IMG/VR virus record: IMGVR_UViG_3300021977_000039
Location: 1-23,313 of that record
DNA from: a virus
Length of the DNA: 23,313 nt
Reading direction: 5' to 3' (one strand)
Shown: one piece after another, positions 2,692 through 23,246 of the stretch
Layout of the letters: each line of letters begins with the position of its first letter
How positions within the stretch are numbered: the first letter of the stretch is position 1
The notes under the pieces: model-generated
What the model was told of the DNA's origin: nothing
The model's input: only the letters and a program-made list of their open reading frames with translations
The model's database searches: none
Position numbers and translations under genes: made by a program

Positions 2692-3027
2692 ATGATCACA
2701 TTAACAAAAAATGCACAGAATAGATTGGCCGATTTGCTTGCGACTAATAGCAAATATGCATTGCGCTTTGGCGTTATATCAGGTGGATGTTCTGGTTTCA
2801 GTTATGATATGCAGCTTATTGATGAAAATCAAGTTGAGTCAGACGACGAAGTTATAACATTCTCCAACCCAAATGTTATCGTAGTCATGAACGAAATCAT
2901 GCCATTTTATTTGGCTGGAACCGAGATTGATTGGATTGAAAACATGATGGGATCGTCGTTCCAGTTTAATAATCCGAATGAAGCGTCGAATTGTGGTTGT
3001 GGGAGTTCTTTTTCTCACGCTGGGTAA
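2692..3027 (+). CDS. HesB/IscA-type iron-sulfur cluster carrier
   Basis: 111 residues, the usual length of A-type carriers (IscA, SufA, ErpA, HesB). It starts ITLTKNAQNRL and has the signature GGCSGFSY with Cys33, then a C-terminal CGCG with Cys101 and Cys103. These are the three cysteines that bind Fe or an Fe-S cluster. The family hands [2Fe-2S] or [4Fe-4S] clusters from a scaffold to apo-enzymes in the cytoplasm. Start ATG is preceded by AGGAAA. The downstream gene at 3056 follows after 28 bases and probably shares the transcript. No other Isc/Suf gene is in view, so it presumably works with host machinery or a phage Fe-S enzyme outside the window. Family assignment is very secure. Confidence 0.93.
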   Translation: MITLTKNAQNRLADLLATNSKYALRFGVISGGCSGFSYDMQLIDENQVESDDEVITFSNPNVIVVMNEIMPFYLAGTEIDWIENMMGSSFQFNNPNEASNCGCGSSFSHAG

Positions 3028-3412: not shown

Positions 3413-4660
3413 ATGGATGTGTTAGACACACTGACCATTTTGTTGTTTGCGGTTGTGTTGATTGGATGGATCAACGAGAAATTTCTGAAAATCCAAGATG
3501 AAATTGGCTTGTTACTGGTCGCGCTGGTGGCATCAGTTCTGCTAACCTCGGCGGATCAGGTCATTCCGTCATTTTCAATTTCTGCCGAAATCCGTGAATT
3601 TATGGGCGGAATTGATTTCTACGCAGTCGTTATGGTGTGGATGTTGCCATTCCTGTTGTTCGGGGACGCATTGCATACCGATGTTGGGCCAATGATGGCA
3701 CGAAAAGCAGCGATTGCGGTTCTGGCAATTGTCGGAACGGTCGCGACCACAATGATTATCGGAACATCCATGTATTTCATTTTGAATTATATGGGTGTGC
3801 AAATTCCATATCTTGTGTCGCTGGTGTTTGGGGCAATTGTGTCACCCACTGATCCAATTGCGGTTATCGCGATTCTGAAAAAGCACGCGGTCCCAAAGAC
3901 ATTGGAAGCGAAAGTGGCCGGGGAAAGCCTTTTTAATGATGGGGTGGGGATTGTTGTTTTTGCCGTGTTAACCCAGGTGGCGTTTGGCACTGATACCCAC
4001 ATCAATATAACCCACATTGCTGAAATGTTTGCAGTTGAGGCGATTGGGGGTGTTATACTTGGTCTTGCAATTGGATATGCGGCCTATCGTTGGACCGCAA
4101 CAACTGATCGGCATACGTGGGAAGTGATGCTAACCGTGGTTACTGTATTTGCCATTACATCGCTGTCACGGGTGCTGGGTGTTAGTGGGGCGTTGGGGTG
4201 TGTCATTGCTGGGTTGTTTACCGGCAATCATGGTCAAAAACACGGCATGGTAGAAAATACCCGTGAATACCTGCATAAATTTTGGCAGGTAATCCATAAC
4301 GGATTAATTGGCGTCTTATTCTTACTGATTGGTGTCGAAGTTTTTGCGATCAGTCATGATGTAACTGCAATTATTGCAACCGGTTTGGCAATTATGGTGT
4401 CCCTCATTGCCCGGTTTATTGTGGTCGCCGATGTGATTGCAGTATTGTCATGGATTACATCAACTGAATACACCACCGGTGCAGTTAAAATTTTGACTTG
4501 GGGTGGGGTTCACGGCGGTATTTCTATTGCCCTGGCTTTGGCTATACCAGATTCGCCATTTAAAGACTTGTTATTAACCATGACCTACGGCGTTGTGATC
4601 TTTTCAATCGTCGTCCAAGGGTTGACGATGAACCAGGTCATTAAACACGCAATGAAGTAA
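3413..4660 (+). CDS. NhaP-type (CPA1) Na+/H+ antiporter
   Basis: 415 residues, strongly hydrophobic throughout, about twelve predicted membrane spans, so an inner-membrane protein. CPA1 landmarks are in order: GAIVSPTDPIAV (unwound helix region), ESLFNDGVGIVVF with the ion-binding Asn-Asp pair, and near the C-terminus TWGGVHGGISIALALA. The last motif normally reads W-x-G-L-R-G; here His takes the place of the conserved Arg. The family exchanges cytoplasmic Na+ (or K+/Li+) for H+. No long cytoplasmic C-terminal tail is present. By eye the gene is clearly richer in G+C than its neighbours, which suggests acquisition from a cellular genome. It is bounded by terminators on both sides, so it is an isolated accessory unit. 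Full length and intact motifs argue that it is functional. Confidence 0.93.
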   Translation: MDVLDTLTILLFAVVLIGWINEKFLKIQDEIGLLLVALVASVLLTSADQVIPSFSISAEIREFMGGIDFYAVVMVWMLPFLLFGDALHTDVGPMMARKAAIAVLAIVGTVATTMIIGTSMYFILNYMGVQIPYLVSLVFGAIVSPTDPIAVIAILKKHAVPKTLEAKVAGESLFNDGVGIVVFAVLTQVAFGTDTHINITHIAEMFAVEAIGGVILGLAIGYAAYRWTATTDRHTWEVMLTVVTVFAITSLSRVLGVSGALGCVIAGLFTGNHGQKHGMVENTREYLHKFWQVIHNGLIGVLFLLIGVEVFAISHDVTAIIATGLAIMVSLIARFIVVADVIAVLSWITSTEYTTGAVKILTWGGVHGGISIALALAIPDSPFKDLLLTMTYGVVIFSIVVQGLTMNQVIKHAMK

Positions 4661-7054: not shown

Positions 7055-7618
7055 ATGGAAAACCATGTTTCATTAAGCAGGGTGTTGGCATACTACCTGC
7101 GCCATAAACCAAATGAACTAAACCTGGAACTGAATACTGGTGGTTGGGTTGATGTGAATGCCCTTATTTCGGGAATGAAGAAATGCGGGCATTCAATCAA
7201 CAAAACCATATTGTTTGAAATTGTGAACACCGATAACAAAAATCGATATTCGTTAAACAGGGAACGAACTTTAATTCGAGCAAATCAGGGTCATAGTGTT
7301 CCGGTTAATATGAATTTTGTGCCCCAATGTCCACCAGATTTTCTTTATCACGGAACATCCTCGCGATTTATTGATAAAATCATGAAGGATGGTTTACAAC
7401 GAATGACACGTAACTATGTTCATTTGTCGGCTGATATTGATACAGCACGCGCCGTTGGCACGCGACACGGTGGTAATTTGGTGATCATAACAATCGATAC
7501 CAAACAATATAAAAAAATTGATTGGTATATTAGTGAAAACGGCGTATGGTTAGTCAAATATTTACCTCCAACCGGATTCACGCTCAATTTTGTTTCGGAT
7601 ACCAGGTGGGCAGAATAA
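7055..7618 (+). CDS. kptA: RNA 2'-phosphotransferase (KptA/Tpt1)
   Basis: 187 residues, very close to the usual length for bacterial KptA. Family motifs appear in order: LSRVLAYYLRHKP (Arg16-His17), GGWVDV, IRANQGHSVPV (Arg75, His80), FLYHGTSSRFIDKIMKDGL, and YVHLSADIDTA. Tpt1 enzymes remove an internal RNA 2'-phosphate by transferring it to NAD+, giving ADP-ribose 1''-2''-cyclic phosphate; some members also ADP-ribosylate nucleic-acid 5'-phosphate ends. The gene starts six bases after the ligase stop with only a weak ribosome site, so expression probably depends on coupling. The neighbouring ligase and MazG-like enzyme suggest a nucleic-acid repair setting. No RNA ligase that would leave 2'-phosphates is in the window, so the physiological target is open. 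Confidence 0.95.
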   Translation: MENHVSLSRVLAYYLRHKPNELNLELNTGGWVDVNALISGMKKCGHSINKTILFEIVNTDNKNRYSLNRERTLIRANQGHSVPVNMNFVPQCPPDFLYHGTSSRFIDKIMKDGLQRMTRNYVHLSADIDTARAVGTRHGGNLVIITIDTKQYKKIDWYISENGVWLVKYLPPTGFTLNFVSDTRWAE

Positions 7619-8794: not shown

Positions 8795-9982
8795 TTATTG
8801 TATCCAGTTTGGTTGAATGGTTCCCCGAAATATCACGATGCCGGTTTGATCCAAACTATCTTTCCAATCATGATTTTTGTTATTACGCATATAATCGTAT
8901 GTCGGTTCGAGTTGGTCGGTTTCTGCTGCTGGTATATGGACTTCCAGGACAACTGGACGAAGCGTTTCATCAAATGAAAAAATATAATCCAATTCGTCCT
9001 GTGTGTAATTTTTGTATTCACCCAACTGTTCGAGATAATACTCTCGTTGTTTAATTAACATAGACATATCTTTTCCGGGGTGTTCGTCAATTAGTTTATT
9101 CACCCGGTTAAGGGTATCCATAAAACCTTTTAAATTCATCAATTTTTTGGCCCTGACTTTTGGACCAAACGATACCTGTGTGATCTTCGTTGCCTTCTTA
9201 GCGGTTGACAAGGCATCTTCCTGGCGGGAAAACATTGCCAGGTCTATTGAACGGGGAGATATTTTCATTAATCCAGCATTAAAATTAGATACACCGCAAT
9301 ATAATGTAATATCAGAGTTAACCTCGGTTCTTTCCATTAAATCAGTTTCAGTTGATAGAAATTTTGCAGGAATATCACCATGAACGATGATGGTATATTG
9401 ATCAGATTCAATATTATCGCCATAATACTCGTTATATTGGATTAAATGTGCCAGATCGTATCGTAACTTCTGTTCAAATACGTCGGGTTCCATGCTAACT
9501 GGTGGAGTATATCCAGCATTTTTCATTGCAACGGTATCTATTTCAATGATAACTGATCCATACATATAAATGCTTTCCGGCTCGGTGCTGGTAAATATGC
9601 CATCAACGAATTGATTAATTGCACGACGGGTTTTTTGAATTTGTTGTAATCCGGTTATCATTATATTTTTGGCATTTTTTTCGGATGTAGCATGGTATAA
9701 AATTTCTGGTGCATTCCAAAACGCATTTGACGCTTCGATTTCGGAATCTGGAAATAACGAAGTTAGGTCGGCATCATATAACCAGGCTGATTTTGGTTCA
9801 CACGTGACATAAAGATCATCACCAGACCATTCAATCACAAAATTATCAGTGATGAAAATATCATCGCCCTTATATCCGGGTAAACTTAATTTTGTCGCTC
9901 CGTATTGCTGTAGTATGTTGGCAATATCGTCTTTTGTTTCAATGTCATAAAGTTCATCTTGTATCGTATCGTCATTTTGCAT
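8795..9982 (-). CDS. ADP-ribosyltransferase-like protein, possibly with two ART-type domains
   Basis: 395 residues. Residues 94-112 read ILYHATSEKNAKNIMITGL, the hallmark first strand and helix of KptA/DarT/ART-like folds (LYHxTS...Il..GL). GIFTSTEPES follows at 129-138 and VHGDIPAKFL at 200-209, placed like the later motifs of the fold. A second similar run begins at 225: DITLYCGVSNFNAGLMKIS, then FSRQEDALSTA, hinting at a second, diverged ART unit. The C-terminal 70 residues end with GIVIFRGTIQPNWI. N-terminal residues 1-90 form a separate acidic region. If active it would use NAD+ to modify protein or nucleic acid. No catalytic Glu motif of the R-S-E type is obvious. It is alone on this strand. 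The fold is probable; activity and second domain are tentative. Confidence 0.6.
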   Translation of the reverse strand: MQNDDTIQDELYDIETKDDIANILQQYGATKLSLPGYKGDDIFITDNFVIEWSGDDLYVTCEPKSAWLYDADLTSLFPDSEIEASNAFWNAPEILYHATSEKNAKNIMITGLQQIQKTRRAINQFVDGIFTSTEPESIYMYGSVIIEIDTVAMKNAGYTPPVSMEPDVFEQKLRYDLAHLIQYNEYYGDNIESDQYTIIVHGDIPAKFLSTETDLMERTEVNSDITLYCGVSNFNAGLMKISPRSIDLAMFSRQEDALSTAKKATKITQVSFGPKVRAKKLMNLKGFMDTLNRVNKLIDEHPGKDMSMLIKQREYYLEQLGEYKNYTQDELDYIFSFDETLRPVVLEVHIPAAETDQLEPTYDYMRNNKNHDWKDSLDQTGIVIFRGTIQPNWIQ

Positions 9983-20399: not shown

Positions 20400-20428
20400 T
20401 TGACGTTTTTTTAATTGTGGTGTATATT
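20400..20428 (+). promoter_or_regulatory. Promoter of the first LRR-like gene
   Basis: TTGACG (20400-20405), 17-bp spacer with a T-run, TATATT (20423-20428). About 39 bases further comes the ATG, with TGGAG as ribosome site. The same element precedes the second copy at 21378. Confidence 0.65.
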
Positions 20429-20466
20429 ACTTCAATAATCAAACGCATTATTTTGGAGATAATATC

Positions 20467-21345
20467 ATGACCAATACATCACGCGAAACGATTGAAATCA
20501 ATGGCATCGATATGCCGGTGGATGATTTTATGTATTCGGACCATTTGGTGGTCAATCATGATTTGAATATTATGGTTGGTAGTGAAATTTATCGGTTACC
20601 TGATAACTTGCAGGTGAATGGTCAATTGCATATCAATTCCGACAATATTAGTTATCTACCAGAAAACCTGGTAGTAAACGGATCACTTATGATTGTTGCG
20701 ACAAACATCACGCGTTTTCCCGAAACGATGGTCGTTTCTGGTATAATATCGCTGTGCAAAACAAAAATTGATTATATTCCTGCACAAAAAGACCGGGTGT
20801 ATATTATGTGTTTGGAAAATACGGTTCCGGTCAAATTGGCAGACAATATGACGTGTGGCATTGTTATTTTTATAAACACTAAAGTAGAAGAATTGCCATC
20901 AGGGTTATCAGCTTTATCGTTGACGCTCGAAGCAGCAAACGGTTACCCATTCACCGATATGTTGTGCTTGCCGAACGACTTAAGTGTGAACCGGTTAAGT
21001 GTTTGTTCATCATTAGAGGCACAACCTATCCCGCGCAAGATAAAAAAGATCGAGTTTACCGATATTCATTATCGGGATGATTTGTATCATGATCCATTTG
21101 TCAAAATTAACTATACTTTCGGTTTCGAATCATCGGATACCTTGGTTATCAACGGCACCCCGGTTTCGTATGATAACCTGAAAAAGATGACAATGGATGA
21201 TGTTATCACGTTATTGCTTGGTGAAACCGGGAAGAACCATATGTTGAATTGGCAGAAAAAATACAAATATCAAACCGAAACATTTTGGAAAAAATGGCGG
21301 GATGAAATTATCCGTCATGGCGAAACAATTGCAGAAAATGCGTAA
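20467..21345 (+). CDS. LRR-like repeat protein, paralogue 1 of 3
   Basis: 292 residues. After a conserved N-terminal segment (ETIEINGIDMPVDDFM...LVVNHDLNI) come about seven units of roughly 20-23 residues of the type LP-x-NL-x-V-x-G-x-L-x-I-x-x-x-x-I-x-x-(L/F)P, e.g. YLPENLVVNGSLMIVATNIT and RFPETMVVSGIISLCKTKI. This is the LPxxL leucine-rich/beta-solenoid style also seen in IpaH-type and many phage repeat proteins. It suggests a curved protein-binding surface. A C-terminal segment (TFWKKWRDEIIRHGETIAENA) is conserved in all three paralogues. No signal peptide, E3-ligase catalytic Cys domain or membrane span is seen. ATG has TGGAG upstream. Function unknown; binding of a host protein is inferred from the fold. 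Confidence 0.75.
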   Translation: MTNTSRETIEINGIDMPVDDFMYSDHLVVNHDLNIMVGSEIYRLPDNLQVNGQLHINSDNISYLPENLVVNGSLMIVATNITRFPETMVVSGIISLCKTKIDYIPAQKDRVYIMCLENTVPVKLADNMTCGIVIFINTKVEELPSGLSALSLTLEAANGYPFTDMLCLPNDLSVNRLSVCSSLEAQPIPRKIKKIEFTDIHYRDDLYHDPFVKINYTFGFESSDTLVINGTPVSYDNLKKMTMDDVITLLLGETGKNHMLNWQKKYKYQTETFWKKWRDEIIRHGETIAENA

Positions 21346-21356
21346 GTAACAAAAAG

Positions 21357-21389
21357 CGTCAATTATTTATATAATGATTGACGTTTTTT
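21357..21389 (+). terminator. Terminator of paralogue 1, embedded in the next promoter
   Basis: CGTCAATTATT pairs with AATGATTGACG (11 bp with one wobble) around a 5-base loop, followed by six T; flanking A-run and T-run extend the stem. The last bases of the right arm form TTGACG, the -35 of the following promoter. Confidence 0.85.
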
Positions 21390-21405
21390 AATTGTGGGGT
21401 ATATT
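21378..21405 (+). promoter_or_regulatory. Promoter of the second LRR-like gene, sharing bases with the terminator
   Basis: TTGACG (21378-21383), 16-bp spacer that contains the terminator T-run, TATATT (21400-21405). It is the duplicate of 20400-20428 with one base less in the spacer. Confidence 0.65.
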
Positions 21406-21443
21406 ACTTCAATAACCAACCGCATTATTTTGGAGATAATATC

Positions 21444-22316
21444 ATGACCAATTCATCACGCGAAACGATTGAAATCAATGGCGTCGATATGCCTGTGGAT
21501 GATTTTATGAATTCGGACCATTTGGTGGTCAATCATAATTTGGAAATTGACGAAAAGTATGAAATTTACCAATTACCTACTAATTTACAGGTAAATGGCT
21601 TGTTGGAAATCAACACAAACCATATTAATTATCTACCAGAAAATCTGGTAGTAGACGGATCACTTGCGATTATTGGAACAAACATCACGCGTTTGCCCGA
21701 AACGATGGCGATTGCCAAACATTTAATGCTGGCTAGAACAAAAATTAATTATATTCCTGCACAAAAAAGCCGAGTGGGTATTACTTGTATGGAAAATACA
21801 GTTCCGGTCAAATTGGCAGACAATATGATGTGTGATAGTGTCTATTTAGTAGATACCAAAGTTAACGAATTGCCTTTGGGACTTTTTGCATCACGGTTGT
21901 CGATAATTCCAACGGGGTCCATCGGTCATGCTTTGGTCAATAATACGTTGTGCTTGCCTAATGATTTAAACGTTTTGTGCTTGCATATTTGTTCATCATT
22001 AGAGGCACAACCTATCCCGCGCAATGTAAAAACAATCAAGTTTGTTGATTATCATAATGATGGCTTGGTAGTCATCATTACATATGACCTCGTTTTTAAA
22101 TCATCGGATACCTTGGTTATCAACGGCACATCGGTTTCGTATGATGATCTGAAAGAGATGACATCGGATGATGCTGGCGCGTTATTGCTTGGTGAGACCG
22201 GGCGGCATGATCCGTTGGATTGGTTGAACAATTACAAATATAATGCAAAAACATTCTGGGAAAAATGGCGGGATGAAATTATCCGTCATGGCGAAACAAT
22301 TGCAGAAAATGCGTAA
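21444..22316 (+). CDS. LRR-like repeat protein, paralogue 2 of 3
   Basis: 290 residues from the ATG at 21444, the position equivalent to the start of paralogue 1, with TGGAG upstream; the frame is open 66 bases further back but only through the duplicated leader. N-terminus (ETIEINGVDMPVDDFMNSD) and C-terminus (KWRDEIIRHGETIAENA) nearly match paralogue 1, whereas the central repeats (e.g. YLPENLVVDGSLAIIGTNIT and RLPETMAIAKHLMLARTKI) have changed in the exposed positions between the structural Leu/Ile/Pro. That is what would be expected if the repeat surface is under selection for binding a variable partner. No terminator lies between it and the third gene, so both are probably on one transcript. 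Function unknown. Confidence 0.75.
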   Translation: MTNSSRETIEINGVDMPVDDFMNSDHLVVNHNLEIDEKYEIYQLPTNLQVNGLLEINTNHINYLPENLVVDGSLAIIGTNITRLPETMAIAKHLMLARTKINYIPAQKSRVGITCMENTVPVKLADNMMCDSVYLVDTKVNELPLGLFASRLSIIPTGSIGHALVNNTLCLPNDLNVLCLHICSSLEAQPIPRNVKTIKFVDYHNDGLVVIITYDLVFKSSDTLVINGTSVSYDDLKEMTSDDAGALLLGETGRHDPLDWLNNYKYNAKTFWEKWRDEIIRHGETIAENA

Positions 22317-22349
22317 GTAACAAAAAAACCTATTTTTGGGTGATATAGC

Positions 22350-23246
22350 ATGACCAATTCATCAAACAAAACTATTCAAATCAACGGCGTCGATATACCG
22401 GTGGATGATTTTATGACAAAATCAAATCAGATTGTTCGACACAATCTTGATTTGAGTAAACACGACATCGATAAGTTGCCTGATGATCTTACCATTTTGG
22501 GTAGTGCGTGTATTACAGGAAATAAAATCAACCGGCTACCGGATGGGCTTGTCGTTCATCGCGAATTATCTATCATTGGGACAAATATTACTCAACTACC
22601 TGATACCCTGGTTGTTGGTAATGGTATTTGTCTCACTGACACCAAAATCATTAATATCCCAGAAAAAGTTGTTTTACGTGATGATGGGCATGAAAAGATT
22701 TTCGACTTTGTTGTTGTTGATAGCAATAAGGTTCCATTTACGCTGCCCGATAATTTGTCAACAATGACACTTAAAATTTTAAATACCAAAATGGACAAAT
22801 TGCCTAGCAATTTGTCCACATACCAAGTTGATATATCGTTGGGCGAAACTGATATTATCTTTGCACCGGATATGGTTTCGTCGGAATTGATAGTTAGTGC
22901 CGACTTAAAATATCAGGCTATTCCGGTTGGGGTTGTTGGAAATAAAATTAATCGTTTGATATTTGTAAAACATTATATACCGGATGATGCGATTTTTCAT
23001 CATTCCAACGATGTCATCAACTATTTGTTTGTGTTTGAATCAAACACACATATACGCATCAAGGAGACCCAGGTCTCATATGATAAGTTGAAAAATATGC
23101 GAGCGAAAAAAGTTGCAAAAATTATTGTTGGACAATTAGGTAATTATTGTTCAACCGAACGCAAAAAAGAATACCTGGCCGACGCCAAACAATTCTGGAA
23201 AAAATGGCGGAACGAAATTATTCGGCATGGCGAGGAAATACGTTAA
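22350..23246 (+). CDS. LRR-like repeat protein, paralogue 3 of 3
   Basis: 298 residues, ATG 33 bases after paralogue 2, with only GGGTGA as a modest ribosome site and no promoter, unlike the other two. It is the most diverged copy but keeps the whole plan: KTIQINGVDIPVDDFM at the N-terminus, repeats such as KLPDDLTILGSACITGNKIN, RLPDGLVVHRELSIIGTNIT and QLPDTLVVGNGICLTDTKI, and the C-terminal FWKKWRNEIIRHGEEI. The repeat consensus LPD-x-L-x-V-x-x-x-L-x-I-x-x-T-x-I is clearest here. It probably represents the older member of the family, co-transcribed with paralogue 2. Function unknown. Confidence 0.75.
   Translation: MTNSSNKTIQINGVDIPVDDFMTKSNQIVRHNLDLSKHDIDKLPDDLTILGSACITGNKINRLPDGLVVHRELSIIGTNITQLPDTLVVGNGICLTDTKIINIPEKVVLRDDGHEKIFDFVVVDSNKVPFTLPDNLSTMTLKILNTKMDKLPSNLSTYQVDISLGETDIIFAPDMVSSELIVSADLKYQAIPVGVVGNKINRLIFVKHYIPDDAIFHHSNDVINYLFVFESNTHIRIKETQVSYDKLKNMRAKKVAKIIVGQLGNYCSTERKKEYLADAKQFWKKWRNEIIRHGEEIR

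Follow-up and report, generated by a model that had tools for sequence, protein, structure and literature searches.

Three tandem leucine-rich repeat genes of a jumbo phage share conserved ends and differ mainly on their outward face

Why would a phage carry, side by side, three genes whose ends agree and whose centres do not? The question is raised by positions 20400 to 23246 of the window, by which we mean the whole stretch of 23,313 bp that was analysed, itself part of an IMG/VR contig of 457,165 bp to which it is 99.996% identical (one mismatch in 23,313). Three consecutive open reading frames lie there on the plus strand, each start having an RBS-like sequence: copy 1 (P0001, 292 aa) at 20467..21345, copy 2 (P0002, 290 aa) at 21444..22316 and, after a short intergene, copy 3 (P0003, 298 aa) at 22350..23246. 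Copy 2 is 66% identical to copy 1 and copy 3 40-41% identical, and their similarity to copy 1 (E = 1.7e-116 and 1.9e-53, respectively) places paralogy far above chance. All three proteins start with M-T-N-x-S, share the N-terminal segment I-x-I-N-G-[IV]-D-[MI]-P-V-D-D-F-M, continue with LPxxL repeats of about 20 residues each and carry the C-terminal motif FW[KE]KWR[DN]EIIRHGE. These positions, similarities and common ends confirm the original prediction, made from the letters alone, of three neighbouring genes with one architecture. Its further statement that copies 1 and 2 are nearly identical in leader and at both termini was also correct: over their first 31 residues the two proteins differ at three sites and over their last 21 at one, and both genes have the leader TTGACG-N16/17-TATATT...GGAGATAATATCATG. 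Ahead of copy 1 (20400..20466, plus strand), TTGACG-17-TATATT occupies 20400-20428 and is followed by the GGAGATAATATC RBS region; in the duplicated leader of copy 2 (21378..21443, plus strand) the spacing is 16 (21378-21405) and the RBS region is identical. From its match to the consensus, this element is a putative sigma70-like promoter; it is absent upstream of copy 3.

An AlphaFold2 model computed from the three-sequence alignment (mean pLDDT 86.8) predicts an N-terminal hairpin cap followed by a parallel-strand leucine-rich repeat (LRR) solenoid with strands at repeat positions 10-14. The tandem repeats follow the consensus LPxxLxVxGxLxLxxTxIxx, about 20 residues, which is that of the 20-residue bacterial LRR type. 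Each copy has three regular repeats and several irregular ones; in copy 1 the regular repeats, three of 20 residues (residues 44-103), are encoded at 20596..20775 on the plus strand, with positions 10-14 forming the concave strands. The C terminus, about 70 aa, is modelled as a hairpin plus helices. In copy 1 this cap (21130..21342, plus strand) comprises a hairpin at residues 225-234 and helices at 235-251 and 260-291, the second of which is 32 residues long and bears FWKKWRDEIIRHGE. The proteins contain no strongly hydrophobic segment of the kind expected for a signal peptide or membrane helix.

No family in Pfam, NCBIfam or PADLOC matches the trio, the curated Pfam LRR models included; a Pfam LRR match is a sequence-model criterion and not the defining structural one, and the PADLOC library holds defence systems, most phage inhibitors falling outside its coverage. 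A PHROGs search with the trio returned no significant match. Profiles reached further: the three-copy profile matched the solved LRR protein 8z5u (E = 5e-17), and the solenoid profile matched other phage LRR proteins, which occur in arrays, with 99% probability (E = 5e-20). With Foldseek, the trio model found weak matches in the PDB (best E = 0.2), and its top three matches among the viral models of BFVD were LRR proteins of Podoviridae sp. ctz6O13. These three entries (A0A8S5TKI2, A0A8S5TKP0 and A0A8S5TLH1) are labelled SspH2 or E3 ubiquitin ligase, names that were probably carried over automatically on the strength of the LRR part alone. We ruled out an SspH2-like E3-ligase identity for the trio itself: a NEL domain is absent, with no Pfam or NCBIfam match and a C terminus made of the hairpin and helices.

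The ends of the trio are peculiar to it. We ran strict and loose patterns for the C-terminal motif against IMG/VR, a check suggested by the original prediction, and found it as an LRR tail only in the trio's phage; a match in the loci L020 and L021 falls in an unrelated 904-aa protein. The caps occur nowhere else in the sequences searched, and no other gene of the 457-kb contig has the C-terminal domain. Searching genome contigs with copy 3 gave no match, and searching them with the repeat profile gave four loci.

Divergence among the copies is concentrated on one side of the solenoid. Between copies 1 and 2, 17 of 21 outward residues of the concave strands are changed, against 5 of 14 inward strand residues and 41 of the 130 remaining solenoid residues (outward versus remainder, Fisher p = 2e-5); a short irregular repeat (residues ~104-119) was excluded because its register is ambiguous. 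The other pairs show the same trend, with 21/21 outward residues changed between copies 1 and 3 and 19/21 between copies 2 and 3. The predicted divergence of the repeat surface is thus supported, and the broader scheme of duplication with conserved ends and change on that surface was borne out: change is neither evenly spread nor located in the core, and the relatives are not always single-copy structural proteins. We put the probability that the trio are soluble LRR binding proteins with a diversified contact face at about 0.5.

The trio has company. A 20-residue repeat like its own is present in about 100 viral contigs, often as tandem arrays. In IMG/VR the repeat pattern picks out 115 stretches; of 79 loci with matches, 28 hold at least two LRR frames, though many loci are short. 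LRR genes number 34 in G005 (113 kb), 11 in G002 (257 kb), 10 each in G003 and G004, 9 in G012, 6 in G007 and 3 in G011, in records covered whole or partly and with frames cut at 20-kb piece borders counted twice. Tandem copies per genome, which the original prediction had proposed to count, therefore range from 3 to 34 in these records, and the 457-kb contig has exactly three copies of the trio family. Starts and ends are conserved among array genes, whose lengths in many cases differ by repeat units. G005 and G007 encode tail sheath, connector and baseplate proteins, so these carriers are tailed phages. Pfam LRR_4 weakly matches 7 of 14 array proteins. Related arrays have PHROG 21719 as a match, and PHROGs annotates the phage LRR family met here as of unknown function. 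With at least two adjacent LRR genes, conserved caps and a diverged concave face, the trio belongs to this array class. Its caps differ from those of the arrays, so its function may differ too. Outside phages, the trio-type repeat occurs in a single-copy LRR protein of large enterobacterial plasmids, represented by a Citrobacter freundii plasmid (L017, 3797-4549) and about 110 related plasmid records, where the gene overlaps an opposite-strand relE.

One array, that of the 257-kb phage G002, joins the repeats to a second domain. The domain that precedes its LRRs has R103, S162 and E214-x-E216 as invariant residues, an R-S-ExE motif by which we call it ADP-ribosyltransferase (ART)-like; Pfam and PDB sequence searches gave no confirmation of this assignment, and a fold search gave a single weak ART-fold match (E = 0.32). 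The G002 LRR model resembles 8z5u (E = 8.5e-6, TM 0.84 by target) and also lies near type III effector LRRs whose structures were determined in complex with their targets. The fusion fits an LRR aiming an enzyme, and the natural reading is that the LRR would direct the enzyme to its target. Together with the selection pattern in relatives described below, this fusion to an effector-like domain is our reason for supposing that the trio, too, binds host proteins.

The same phage raises the possibility that such proteins travel in the virion and enter the cell along with the DNA, to act on the host immediately, like the internal proteins and Alt of T4. Nine of its 11 array LRRs begin with the tag M-x-x-LLRSLIRxxLLxE, which is also found on unrelated genes there (25 of 358 genes), and similar starts are common to several genes of G007. 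In T4, N-terminal propeptides about 10 residues long target the internal proteins and Alt, all of which are ejected into the cell; Alt is an ADP-ribosyltransferase that is packaged in the capsid and injected (PMC9026906). Packaging is frequent among phage ADP-ribosyltransferases and has been proposed as a general strategy (PMC9503650). Some arrays, as in G002, resemble these proteins in having an N-terminal tag and an ART-like domain, whereas the trio has neither: its N terminus is a strand hairpin in the AlphaFold2 model and not an amphipathic helix, and its neighbours are of replication type. Because the trio does not have the packaging-like tag of other arrays, its injection along with the DNA is less likely, and we regard it as unlikely. 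In G002 (IMGVR_UViG_3300011113_000805) itself, the many unrelated genes with an N-terminal tag like MRITExRLRxLVRxELLRE include those at 200002-202220, 227340-229575 and 250975-251616, which suggests that the tag may be a genome-wide targeting or packaging signal. That phage also has, at 209603-227270, a second tandem family, comprising at least eight paralogues, each some 160 aa long, which start with YTLIDPVTGxQTTLSExELTRNLQLNCILLQGxEHIGIITHR.

A second possibility is that the trio proteins are parts of the virion surface or tail that bind variable host receptors. Receptor tracking would likewise drive change on a contact face, and the arrays of G005, G007, G011 and G012 adjoin tail, sheath or connector genes. 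The surroundings of the trio, however, are of another kind. It is carried by a jumbo phage whose DNA polymerase is of the T4 type, and its neighbours encode a family-B DNA polymerase, an ATP-dependent ligase, an exonuclease, an RNA 2'-phosphotransferase and a thioredoxin-type protein; these are genes of replication and metabolism, with no virion gene among them and no structural gene near the trio in the window. Features of tail fibres or of trimerisation are not recognisable in the trio, and a receptor-binding protein would not usually come in 3 to 34 paralogues per phage. The solved LRR relative from Vibrio belongs to the flagellar motor and carries a signal peptide, which is missing from the trio. 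We therefore hold a receptor-binding role, too, to be improbable. Other genes in this part of the genome encode a sodium/hydrogen exchanger (window 3413-4660; PF00999, E = 3.5e-53), an iron-sulphur cluster biosynthesis protein (2692-3027; PF01521), the RNA 2'-phosphotransferase (7055-7618; phrog_5470) and a larger opposite-strand protein with a weak KptA-like stretch (8795-9982). Immediately downstream of the trio in the 457-kb phage is an NMT1/TAXI-like solute-binding protein (L004, 12893-13894; PF16868).

Could the central divergence be non-adaptive, the copies being recent tandem duplicates under relaxed constraint with ends homogenised by gene conversion? Several properties of the trio agree with this. 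Overall dN/dS between copies 1 and 2 is 0.53. In blocks of 31 codons, their synonymous divergence is as low as 0.06 at the N terminus and reaches saturation elsewhere. Codons that are identical lie in clusters (P = 0.003 in a runs test), a result that is weaker in a synonymous-only version of the test (P = 0.045). This patchiness and clustering suggest recombination between the copies, and the gene conversion at the ends that had been proposed is plausible. The outward codons are high in both pN (0.59) and pS (0.65), so positive selection is not evident in the trio, where dN/dS does not exceed 1. Diversifying selection is evident in the wider array class, of which the original prediction was unaware, and not in the trio itself.

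In that class we compared 191 pairs of near-identical repeats of one gene, each paired once, using a loose register, a pooled synonymous rate and a bootstrap over 51 virus clusters. The retrieval DNA pattern leaves positions 10, 12, 14 and 15 unconstrained. At positions 10/12/14, pN/pS was 2.43 (95% 2.02-2.95), compared with 1.84 at position 15, 0.20 in the core and 0.87 at other exposed positions, as counts uncorrected for multiple hits, from repeats that recombine within a gene and a contig sample that may include prophage or host fragments. The direction was consistent in 45 of the 51 clusters. A first omega-like estimate of about 9 was discarded, the regex having fixed core residues and the synonymous rate having been taken per position; the looser register and pooled rate gave 2.35, which became 2.43 once related contigs were merged. 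Identity within arrays is 10-16% at positions 10/12/14 against 73-94% in the core, with 49-95% in the N-caps and 39-74% in the C-caps. On these codon counts, positive selection on the outward face at positions 10/12/14 is clear for the wider phage class. Selection at the same positions in the arrays, together with three intact frames, a conserved core and surface-concentrated change in the trio, argues against relaxed duplicates, which we think distinctly unlikely. A DGR-type mutator was considered because the hypervariable codons are mostly NNT/NNC, but it is not supported: no reverse transcriptase (RVT_1) was present in seven array-bearing records, the 457-kb contig included, though these records may be incomplete, and variants occur in every repeat and not in one cassette.

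Action of the binders on rival phages, or on proteins of the phage itself as regulators, is very unlikely; the sequence is silent on whose protein is bound and multi-copy sets would also suit competition, but the surroundings of the arrays inspected showed neither a set of partner genes nor an immunity-like pairing.

We thus favour soluble binders with a diversified contact face. In such proteins, the solenoid would present a row of parallel strands, with the contact face made up of their outward residues 10, 12 and 14; the buried leucines and end caps would be retained for folding. Tandem duplication would supply several genes; recombination between copies and point change on the contact face would then give each copy a different specificity, so that one phage could field several binders in the infected cell against protein targets that change. 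We infer that the face binds a partner, each copy its own. The targets are probably host defence or take-over proteins; that the trio's partner is a defence protein, giving it an anti-defence role, is speculative. More broadly, though with the odds somewhat against it, many tailed phages may maintain multi-gene repertoires of LRR binders, a phage equivalent of receptor repertoires, with a concave face under positive selection and in part packaged or ART-fused, that seize rapidly changing host proteins, defence proteins among them, the trio being a small, divergent array.

Known systems resemble the trio in part. The LRR domains of YopM and IpaH/SspH, which lie structurally close to the model of a related phage LRR, have the same 20-residue LP-type repeats, and in these effectors the LRR is the target-recognition part, with which the titles of solved complexes agree. 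The trio differs from them in lacking the NEL ubiquitin-ligase domain and a secretion signal, in being phage-encoded tandem copies and in its repeat consensus. That consensus is shared by 8z5u, an LRR protein of the Vibrio polar flagellar motor whose PDB entry is described as rod-export apparatus, and by a chromosomal relative, L025; these, unlike the trio, are bacterial, have a signal peptide and lack the hairpin caps and C-terminal helix. Vibrio diabolicus has a secreted protein near-identical to 8z5u, and no paper in the open-access literature searched names PDB 8z5u or 8z60. Closer in setting are gp47 of Edwardsiella phage Edno5 and similar prophage LRRs (Pfam DUF5649 match borderline), which are phage-encoded and have the same 20-residue repeats, varying at 10, 12 and 14, but which differ in their N- and C-terminal caps, are single-copy and have near-identical repeats. 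Vertebrate VLRs and plant LRR receptors likewise comprise many LRR proteins with hypervariable outward strand positions; the comparison with phage LRRs is one of analogy only, and we claim no common ancestry or assembly mechanism.

The LRR domain was known already; as far as the open-access literature searched shows, tandem phage arrays with a hypervariable face would be the new part. Within that literature, which covers few subscription papers and no bioRxiv preprints, so that an earlier description may exist, neither tandem phage LRR sets nor a hypervariable face was found described, and phage LRR proteins are mentioned in passing, as in an LRR putative toxin of an aphid-symbiont phage (PMC13137986). 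If the binding reading is true, the arrays would offer lists, ready for use, of variable binders aimed at host proteins under attack; they could then guide a search for new host defence or take-over targets, and specificity might be read from three residues per repeat.
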